The notes below the pieces were generated by a model, which did no database searches, was not told the DNA's origin, and worked only from the letters and a program-made list of their open reading frames with translations. Shown piece after piece: positions 32,463-52,320 of a stretch of 64,000 nt of DNA. The translations under genes were made by a program, and so were the position numbers. The DNA comes from Sulfurovum sp. FS08-3 (lineage in GTDB: Bacteria > Campylobacterota > Campylobacteria > Campylobacterales > Sulfurovaceae). The DNA lies in assembly GCA_000830175.1 (NCBI GenBank), contig JQIS01000001.1, positions 221,482-285,481 on the forward strand. Direction: 5' to 3'. Within the stretch, counting starts at the first letter, position 1, and every line of letters starts with the position of its first letter.

Positions 32463-32708
32463 ATGAACATTACGGCAACTCAACTTAAACAACAAACGCA
32501 TATTCTTTCACATCTAAAGGAAGAGGATATTATTGTCACCAAAAGAGATAAGCCTTTTGCAGTCATTATAGCGTATGATAAATACCAAGAGATGCTAACT
32601 CAAAACCAACAACAAGCTATCAAGAAAAAAATTCAAGCCCTCCAATCGATGGAAGCTATTGATTTAGGTGGCAAAGACTATCAAAGTATCAAAAGCGAAA
32701 TGGCATAA
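32463..32708 (+). CDS. Phd/YefM-type antitoxin
   Basis: The 81-residue protein begins MNITATQLKQQTHILSHLKE and has DIIVTKRDKPFAVIIAYDKYQEM, the dimerisation and DNA-binding fold of Phd/YefM antitoxins. The C-terminal half is Gln/Lys-rich and would be the disordered toxin-binding tail. It precedes a PIN toxin by 3 bases. Members of this family repress their own promoter, and a direct repeat overlaps the -10 here. Confidence 0.85.
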   Translation: MNITATQLKQQTHILSHLKEEDIIVTKRDKPFAVIIAYDKYQEMLTQNQQQAIKKKIQALQSMEAIDLGGKDYQSIKSEMA

Positions 32709-32711
32709 CCG

Positions 32712-33113
32712 ATGCAAAAGCTTTTTTTGGATGCCAATATTATTTTAGACCTTATTGATGCCAAGAGGGATAGAGTTGCCATCACCAAAGAGCGGCTCAC
32801 CACCCATTTGGCTAACGGTGATAGGCTCTATACAAGTTGCGATATTTTTACTACGGTCTATTATGTAGCAGCTAAACACAATGAATTTAGTAAAGTCATT
32901 GCTCAACTTGAAGCTATTGCAAGCTTTGTTGAGATTATCCCTATTGATGCTAATATTATCCATGAAGCTATCAGGGTTAGTAAAGCCAGTGAGCATAAAG
33001 ATTTGGAAGATATACTTCAATATATCTGTGCCAAAGAGATGGTATGTGATTTGATTTTGAGCAACGACAAAGGATTTTATGCTCCCGATATTGAGCTTCA
33101 AAGAGTAGTTTGA
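32712..33113 (+). CDS. PIN-domain toxin ribonuclease (VapC-like)
   Basis: The 133-residue protein starts MQKLFLDANIILDLIDAKR (first catalytic Asp) and has SCDIFTTVYYVA and SEHKDLEDILQYICA, with later acidic residues and NDKGF. This is the acidic-cluster pattern of PIN nucleases that cut tRNA or mRNA. It is coupled to the Phd/YefM antitoxin 3 bases upstream. The pair lies in the middle of a ribosomal protein operon on the opposite strand. Confidence 0.85.
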   Translation: MQKLFLDANIILDLIDAKRDRVAITKERLTTHLANGDRLYTSCDIFTTVYYVAAKHNEFSKVIAQLEAIASFVEIIPIDANIIHEAIRVSKASEHKDLEDILQYICAKEMVCDLILSNDKGFYAPDIELQRVV

Positions 33114-33186: not shown

Positions 33187-33714
33187 TTAACTCGCTTCTA
33201 ATATATCTTTGGTATCTTTGGTCACTATTTTTTTTGCATCTTTATCGACACTAAGAATATAGCGATCGATATAGGGGACTAAAAAACTTTTGGCTAAACC
33301 TTTTTCTATCAAAGTTGAGTCGGTATCGATTTGAAGGTAGTCAGTGTTGAGGATTCGTTGAATGTCGCTTACTTTTCCCAAAAGCTCTTCGTAGTCGTAG
33401 AGAAGCAAACCGATAATGTCAAACCAAAAGTACTGCCCCTCTTGAAGGTCACAGCTCTTTTGGGTCTCTTCAAGCGAGGTGTAGATTTTGGCATTGGTAA
33501 GGCGTTTGGCACTATCAACATCACCGTATCCTACAAAACCAATCAATCCCTTTTCCAAATCAATACGAGCCACTTCAAGTTTGCCCCTATCGCTCTCAAA
33601 CGATTTGCCTTTTTGAAATTGTTCTGGGAAGTCGGTATGAAAGTGGATTTTGAGATCTCCCCAAAGTCCGTGGGTTTTGCCGATTTGGGCGATAAAAAAT
33701 TGATGGGTTTTCAT
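33187..33714 (-). CDS. rimM: 16S rRNA processing protein RimM
   Basis: RimM binds S19 and helps mature the head of the 30S subunit. The protein (175 residues from this start) begins MKTHQFFIAQIGKTHGLWGD, which matches the family N-terminus, and has the C-terminal PRC barrel (YFWFDIIGLLLYDYEELLGKV, FLVPYIDRYI). The open frame extends 69 bases upstream into the khpA end; that extension is rejected. The ribosome binding site is weak, so coupling with khpA is likely. Confidence 0.92.
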   Translation of the reverse strand: MKTHQFFIAQIGKTHGLWGDLKIHFHTDFPEQFQKGKSFESDRGKLEVARIDLEKGLIGFVGYGDVDSAKRLTNAKIYTSLEETQKSCDLQEGQYFWFDIIGLLLYDYEELLGKVSDIQRILNTDYLQIDTDSTLIEKGLAKSFLVPYIDRYILSVDKDAKKIVTKDTKDILEAS

Positions 33715-33731
33715 TGAAAGCAAGAGAGCAT

Positions 33732-33971
33732 CTACAGAGGTTTCACGTTGATGCGGTAGTTTTTGCCACCTTTTGCTTTGCATCCTGAGATAAAGGTTTT
33801 GATAGAATTGATCATCCGCCCCTCTTTGCCAATAAGCTTACCAATATCTTCACTTGATGCGTAAATGGTAATCTCATCAAGAGCATTATCAATATTTTCA
33901 ACATCTACACGGATGCTTTGAGGGCTACTGACGAGTAACCTTGCATAGGAGGCAATAAACTCTTCTACCAT
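33732..33971 (-). CDS. khpA: KH-domain RNA-binding protein (KhpA/YlqC family)
   Basis: The small single-KH protein (79 residues from MVEEFIASYARLLV) has the core IGKLIGKEGRMINSIKTFI. The family binds RNA and in other bacteria works with KhpB on division or translation. The longer open frame would add 22 residues from the rpsP overlap and is unlikely. Its place between rpsP and rimM is conserved. Confidence 0.88.
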   Translation of the reverse strand: MVEEFIASYARLLVSSPQSIRVDVENIDNALDEITIYASSEDIGKLIGKEGRMINSIKTFISGCKAKGGKNYRINVKPL

Positions 33972-33979
33972 AAGGACTC

Positions 33980-34207
33980 TTATTTGTTGGCTAGTCGTGA
34001 AACTGTTGGACTCATCTTTGCACCCACGCCTGTCCAATAGGTCAATCTCTCTCTATCGATGACAAGATCTTTTTGAGCTGAAATAGGGTTGTAGTATCCA
34101 ATGGCTTCAATCCAACCGCTATCTCGTCTCTTTCGGCTATCGGTTACGACGATTCTGTAAAAGGGCTTTTTTTTGCGTCCCATTCGTGTTAATCTAATGA
34201 CTGTCAT
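33980..34207 (-). CDS. rpsP: ribosomal protein S16
   Basis: This 75-residue 30S protein begins [24 protein letters not shown], diagnostic for S16. It is the first gene of the rpsP-khpA-rimM(-trmD-rplS) operon. The transcript seems to start at a TATAAT about 85 bases upstream and runs through a strong hairpin before the start codon. AAGGAAAA precedes the ATG. Confidence 0.98.
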
Positions 34208-34231
34208 TGTTTTTTCCTTTGTGTAAATATG

Positions 34232-34298
34232 CTAAAGTATTCACAACTCATTTCATCCCTCAAAGGGAGTTGTCAATACTTTAGGGAAGGGAATTATA
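34232..34298 (-). promoter_or_regulatory. rpsP promoter and 5' leader hairpin
   Basis: On the minus strand TATAAT at 34293-34298 predicts a transcript start near 34285. Immediately after, 34284-34267 pairs with 34249-34232 in an 18-bp stem with one mismatch (CTAAAGTATT on the outer side), enclosing a second 5-bp hairpin (TCCCT-caa-AGGGA, partly competing). The RNA would therefore begin with a stable hairpin about 53 bases long, 25 bases before the rpsP start codon. This suits mRNA stabilisation or autogenous control by S16; no known riboswitch class was recognised. Confidence 0.65.
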
Positions 34299-34431
34299 GC
34301 AAAATAATATTAAATTAACCTGAAGGATGTCTTTTAGTAAAAAATAGATAATTCTTTGATTTTTGAATGCAATAACACTATGAAATAAGCATCAAAAAGT
34401 TATAATATATCTTTAGTATTAAAGTTAGGGT

Positions 34432-52129: not shown

Positions 52130-52320
52130 CCCTGAGTGGTACGACATCTTGCAATTTATGTGGTCCAACATTACTTTTTTATGGGATGTGTAGTGGGCTT
52201 GTGTGTGCGCTTTTTCATTTGAGCTTCCAACGAAGCGAGAAATTGATCCCTAATGGCACGCTCTCTCCCTTTCTCTTTGGCTTTTTGGGGCCAGCGTTAC
52301 GCAGAACGGCCACTTGGGAA
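52130..52320 (+). ncRNA. ssrS: 6S RNA
   Basis: A noncoding stretch of about 190 bases lies between a TATAAT box and purD. Its two ends pair: CCCTGAGTGGT at 52130-52140 with GGCCACTTGGG at 52308-52318 (10 pairs, one bulged T). That is the closing stem expected of 6S RNA, and the length fits. Location just upstream of purD is where 6S RNA is known in other Campylobacterota. 6S RNA mimics an open promoter and binds sigma70 RNA polymerase in stationary phase. An open frame that would extend purD through this region is rejected. Confidence 0.72.

Follow-up and report, generated by a model that had tools for sequence, protein, structure and literature searches.

The hairpin upstream of rpsP in Sulfurovum sp. 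FS08-3 as a proposed derived form of a candidate S16-operon leader RNA

Judged by its place and its 3' arm, the hairpin upstream of rpsP in Sulfurovum sp. FS08-3 is homologous to a structured leader RNA of the family of Sulfurovum relatives, yet it is a non-canonical member. The fuller reading, in which this hairpin is its clade's derived form of a family-specific structured leader of the S16 operon whose canonical form binds a protein, appears to us evenly balanced. The features concerned, numbered within the window (the whole 64,000-nucleotide stretch of DNA that was analysed), are given below.

34293..34301, minus strand: TGC-TATAAT, read from the sequence as the extended -10 box of a predicted promoter for rpsP, with TATAAT at 34298-34293
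34284..34287, minus strand: predicted transcription start, placed 6-9 nt past the -10 box
34267..34284, minus strand: 5' arm of the stem, with UGACAACUC where UGAUGAGU stands in relatives
34250..34266, minus strand: apical 17 nt, in part unpaired and in part folded as the inner hairpin CCC-UUUGA-GGG
34232..34249, minus strand: 3' arm of the stem, GAGUUGUGAAUACUUUAG, of which AGUUGUGAAUACUUUA is the same as in the congener G003 (L086), which carries the family core
34215..34220, minus strand: rpsP Shine-Dalgarno sequence AAAGGA, predicted to be unpaired
33980..34207, minus strand: rpsP, ribosomal protein S16, 75 aa (open reading frame; rpsP matches in relatives)
33732..33971, minus strand: khpA, KH-domain RNA-binding protein (Pfam KH_KhpA-B, 73.5 bits)
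33187..33783, minus strand: rimM, 16S maturation factor (Pfam RimM; open reading frame as listed, the true start probably further in)
32463-33113, plus strand: Phd/YefM-type antitoxin (below the Pfam cut-off) and PIN-domain toxin, between rimM and trmD

The initial annotation had described an 18-bp stem with one mismatch after a TATAAT, and exactly such a stem is found at 34232-34284 (minus strand), where two arms of 18 nt, 17 nt apart, are complementary at 17 of 18 positions (94%) with a single G·G mismatch, beginning at 34284, 8 nt past the TATAAT. The 64-kb window contains 18 inverted repeats of 14 nt or longer whose arms are separated by no more than 60 nt, and none but this one combines arms of at least 18 nt with more than 90% complementarity; the stem lies between the -10 box and rpsP, 24 nt 5' of the rpsP start codon, and is present in one copy in the genome (2,543,982 bases, 68 contigs). 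Folding of 34232-34298 on the plus strand gave a z-score of -4.1, with 1 of 200 dinucleotide shuffles as good, while z-scores of -3.7 (0 of 200 shuffles as good) and -3.0 (1 of 200) were obtained for 34200-34287 on the minus strand and for the leader together with the rpsP start, respectively. Judged from the -10 box, the stem is predicted to begin near the 5' end of the rpsP message; the proposal that its first base is the transcript start holds to within a few nucleotides, if the start lies 6-9 nt past the box. A simple promoter scan, which requires a -35 hexamer, omitted this TATAAT. The Shine-Dalgarno sequence is left unpaired in the predicted fold, so that the hairpin does not mask it. 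The inner hairpin shares bases with the outer stem and separates the minimum-energy from the centroid structure of the leader. Two alternative folds had been suggested on this account, and they hold for the window, but most relatives have another alternative, in which the loop UCAUUA or CGUCA is set against UGAUG(A).

A covariance model, R1, was built from 10 equal-length sequences of a motif that recurs past the -10 box, and it matched 134 of the 175 family genomes at E <= 0.05, including 78 of the 90 of good quality; rpsP was located in 153 of the 175. Almost all matches (130 of 137, in 129 genomes) share the strand of rpsP and precede the gene by 19-143 nt. The remaining seven comprise matches in G055, G056 and G124, where no rpsP match is listed on the contig, in G088 and G170, where no rpsP place is among those listed (G170 being shown adjacent via L196), a second copy in G030 and an antisense match in G052. 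In a sample of the class, 25 of 397 genomes matched R1; the two outside the family (G505 and G527) are weak, lie within coding sequences and not 5' of rpsP, and were dismissed as chance. No Rfam 15 family was found at the element, whether in the window at gathering scores, at 13 loci at E <= 5 or at 11 loci at E <= 3. The only Rfam match of the window at gathering scores is a purD RNA motif (RF01069, 74.7 bits) at 52190-52319 on the plus strand. Taken together, a conserved structured RNA element almost certainly exists in this family.

In its canonical form this RNA has three parts. A 9-bp lower helix, whose end lies 22-144 nt from the rpsP start codon, is followed by a core helix AUGAGU/AGUUGU, in which tandem U·G/G·U wobbles and one G·G mismatch occur; above it, the upper helix is variable and closes a loop that often reads UCAUUA or CGUCA. 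The initial annotation had proposed covariation in relatives as a check, and two-sided changes were indeed found in a stem that is conserved in the family. RNAalifold, applied to a MAFFT alignment of 23 sequences, recovered this same helix as one irregular hairpin in which 6 of 17 pairs show two-sided changes. For 96 distinct sequences, picked by a text pattern for the core, 97.3% of the pair cells were paired compared with 90.2% after shuffling, two-sided changes occurred at 9 of 18 pairs and in 123 cells compared with 23.4 (0 of 500 shuffles as high), and the covariation score was 0.283 compared with 0.143 (0 of 500). This alignment was fitted to the R1 structure and leans towards it, and its sequences are related, which leaves the unaided RNAalifold run as the independent check. 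When the structure was slid by 1-3 columns, 34-56% of the cells were paired and 2-15 were two-sided.

A model search of 181 loci without prior selection (E <= 0.003) gave 157 matches, 98 of them distinct and one antisense, and added to the pattern-picked set one sense sequence with an altered core (L149) and the antisense match. Both AUGAGU and AGUUGU are exact in 95 of the 97 distinct sense sequences, the exceptions being L149 (AUAAGU) and L198 (AGUCGU); the diverged leaders L085, L119, L159, L160 and that of the window stand outside the 97, and the invariance is partly a product of selection, because the model was built on canonical sequences. Leaving aside the two core wobbles, G·U pairs outnumber A·C pairs by 183 to 11, and by 105 to 11 when the mostly U·G pair 9-79 is set aside as well, which indicates that the sense RNA, and not the DNA, is under selection. 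The same excess weighs against the idea that the inverted repeat acts as DNA, either as the operator of a repressor or as a cruciform to which S16 binds. What speaks for such a site is the near-perfect palindromic sequence at a promoter, together with the reported binding of cruciform DNA by E. coli S16 (PMC10931766). In G000, G001 and G002, however, the rpsP side of the intergenic region is nearly identical while the side of the divergent gene varies, and we regard a DNA site as very unlikely. A terminator or a functionless dispersed repeat, for which the A+T-rich intergenic location of the hairpin might speak, has a negligible probability; it is refuted by the single genomic copy, the position just past a promoter, the covariation in relatives and the absence of any terminator-like site.

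Of the five genomes that represent the genus of the window, one (G003) carries the canonical core, three (the window, G001 and G002) share an identical derived hairpin, and G004 has another. The window keeps AGUUGU but carries ACAACU in place of AUGAGU. Compared with G003, its 3' arm is identical at 15 of 15 positions, while its 5' arm differs at 4 of 15, and all four differences create Watson-Crick pairs with the kept 3' arm, for which the random expectation is about 1 in 80. The long near-perfect stem of the window is thus a derived state, in which the conserved 5' recognition arm was altered to match the 3' arm. From this pattern, the 5' arm looks as if it had been copied from the other arm, as in quasi-palindrome correction, or as if a stronger stem had been selected. 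Against R1, the sense strand of the window scored 16.6 bits (E 0.88) and the opposite strand 20.3 bits (E 0.096); an inverted copy of the element, which the higher opposite-strand score might suggest, was nevertheless rejected, as the sense 3' arm is identical to that of G003. A tree built from RpsP, KhpA and RimM gives the genus of the window a support of 100 and groups it with the canonical genus g9 (96). Within it, G003 pairs with G004 (91), separate from the window clade (83), implying that the overwriting probably occurred twice; the deep branches are weak (41-56). Between the element and the Shine-Dalgarno sequence, the linkers of g9-type leaders (L003, L013, L033, L024 and L150) hold a hairpin whose six-nucleotide loop ends in CCUC (UUCCUC, UACCUC or AUCCUC).

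A rival explanation is that a 5'-terminal hairpin protects the message from 5'-end-dependent decay, by pyrophosphohydrolase and RNase J, without any protein ligand. Among the 93 canonical leaders in which the distance from the -10 box was measured (3 of the 96 had too little upstream sequence), the stem begins 8-14 nt past the box, near the expected start, in 70, and an extended TGn precedes the box in 63. The window clade and G004 retain a strong stem without the core, and there is a precedent in the same phylum, as disruption of a 5' UTR stem-loop shortened an mRNA half-life in Helicobacter pylori (PMC4843948). Genus g3 has no R1 match in its 12 genomes, a point against the leader reading, although the genus branches at a weakly supported point of the tree. 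Its leaders may be read in favour of protection: ten g3 leaders keep CCAAAA past the -10 box, and 9 of the 10, though lacking the motif, still fold a short hairpin of unrelated sequence just past it. The mean z-score of these hairpins, which are singly mostly unremarkable, is -1.6 to -1.7. For three stretches upstream the values are -0.3 to -0.6, and for a downstream one 0.05 (n=3). Protection, however, needs no fixed sequence, yet the core is invariant, with wobbles and a mismatch that weaken the stem, and in 23 of the 93 leaders the stem starts 20-28 nt past the -10 box and is not 5'-terminal. An invariant but imperfect core favours specific recognition over a hairpin kept solely for its stability, and for the family as a whole we therefore hold protection without a ligand to be rather unlikely. 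The initial annotation had offered protection and autogenous control as alternatives; covariation and the near-invariant core favour control in the family, whereas for the window clade protection by a 5' hairpin explains the observations no less well.

As for the protein that may be bound, position does not single out S16, since khpA, rimM and usually trmD and rplS also follow the leader. The KhpA-type protein mentioned in the initial annotation is indeed encoded next to rpsP, as judged by Pfam; khpA and rimM stand behind rpsP in 36 of the 36 loci tested. In the window, trmD and rplS come after rimM (minus strand; named from sequence). Another operon ligand, above all KhpA, but also L19, TrmD or RimM, would therefore be conceivable, as would a two-state switch in which the main helix alternates with a UGAUGA(G)-(C)UCAUUA hairpin. 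The complementarity of the loop to the 5' arm averages 5.9 nt compared with 3.9 nt in shuffled loops, a statistic taken over related sequences, but the loops of the g2 genus and of L206 are without long complementarity. The gap between rimM and trmD has a median of -1 nt (144 loci with both genes), and in the core-overwritten window clade (window, G001 and G002; loci window and L002) a toxin-antitoxin pair in the opposite direction splits trmD-rplS from rpsP-khpA-rimM, which may be counted in favour of such a ligand or switch. The same pair adjoins rimM in L082 and L084. In G003 and G004, however, rimM and trmD almost abut, so that G004 lost the core with its junction intact, while L065 retains the core with a 1175-nt gap, and no conclusion can be drawn from junction and core. 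Overall, we consider a different ligand or a switch unlikely.

Ribosomal-protein leaders often, though not always, resemble the rRNA site of their ligand. For both strands of the core, the best match in three 16S genes, compared by sequence alone, was no better than that of shuffles. In common with ribosomal-protein leaders, the element is a covarying structure in the 5' leader of an operon and was found in one bacterial family; unlike them in general, it mostly occupies the extreme 5' end, it showed no resemblance to 16S rRNA in this comparison, and its ligand is putative. A close counterpart is the Flavobacteria S16 leader, a predicted structured RNA directly upstream of rpsP, usually followed by rimM, with S16 as the inferred ligand (Eckert and Weinberg, 2020; PMC7247131), which shares this place with the present element but belongs to another phylum. 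The present element matched no Rfam 15 family, though Rfam may not hold that of the Flavobacteria. The same paper cautions that the first gene behind a leader is often not the ligand. For the rpsP-rimM-trmD-rplS operon of E. coli, a 2024 review (PMC10931766) states that information on regulation is lacking. In the window and its sisters, the predicted location of the stem, terminal or nearly so, recalls the 5' stabilising stem-loops of vacA in H. pylori (PMC4843948) and of the E. coli genes ompA and papA (titles cited by PMC3997798). The family element differs from these by its invariant imperfect core and its non-terminal position in about a quarter of the examined leaders. A literature search, with most subscription papers outside its reach, returned no report of a Campylobacterota rpsP leader, and the Flavobacteria prediction was the sole S16 leader found within that scope. 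The rpsP leader of the Sulfurovum family thus appears to be a new candidate among ribosomal-protein leaders.

On balance, it seems mildly probable that the canonical element is a protein-binding autogenous leader. S16 is its likeliest ligand, as the first product of the operon and by analogy with the predicted Flavobacteria leader, an assignment that we make tentatively and at somewhat less than even confidence. In such a mechanism, the structured RNA would form the 5' end of the rpsP-khpA-rimM(-trmD-rplS) message, and its core would bind an operon-encoded protein, most likely S16, whenever this is in excess of free 16S rRNA. The complex at the 5' end would then reduce translation or hasten decay of the message and so match S16 output to rRNA. 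With a distance to rpsP of up to 143 nt, a simple block of the ribosome site cannot operate in every leader; in the long ones at least, binding would have to affect decay, early elongation or the refolding of the leader. In the window species and its two sisters, four sites of the 5' recognition arm have changed so that each now forms a Watson-Crick pair with the kept 3' arm; specific binding there has probably been lost or changed, and a stable 5'-terminal hairpin would remain, perhaps protective of the message.

The linker between the 5' element and rpsP holds a second structured domain in L192-L196, L188, L190, L200, L214, L216, L044, L049, L183 and L187, in which the hairpin loop UUCAGCA pairs with a downstream UGCUGAA (a pseudoknot with compensating changes) and which also has a conserved UAGUUA loop; by eye, it is duplicated in tandem in L183 and L187, and it has no Rfam match. 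Dispersed relatives (L257-L276) stand between tRNA genes and 5' of rplT-, rpmE-, tuf-, glnB- and nadA-like genes, sometimes in tandem. This domain looks like a member of a repeat family, and the weaker matches are likely chance; its kinship to a repeat found in many places led us to reject the second domain of many g11 leaders (model R2) as an rpsP control element. In L267 and L273, 5' of an rpmE-like gene that reads as L31, a conserved-looking leader GUUGCAACGACC ... CAGGUUAGUUNCCUG is observed, possibly another ribosomal-protein leader.

Short, at about 50 nt, and nearly invariant in its core, which some genomes have naturally overwritten, this RNA offers ready test molecules for binding by S16 (or KhpA), and a comparison of canonical with overwritten leaders would let the role of specific binding be separated from that of a 5' hairpin. 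The furthest reading is possible but doubtful: Sulfurovum relatives would regulate their S16 operon by a new RNA family, whose core combines tandem wobbles with a G·G mismatch and which may work as a two-state switch; the window clade and G004, two lineages of one genus, would each have copied one arm onto the other and so lost the binding site but kept the hairpin. If this is true, the window clade and G004 would represent a natural loss-of-control experiment.
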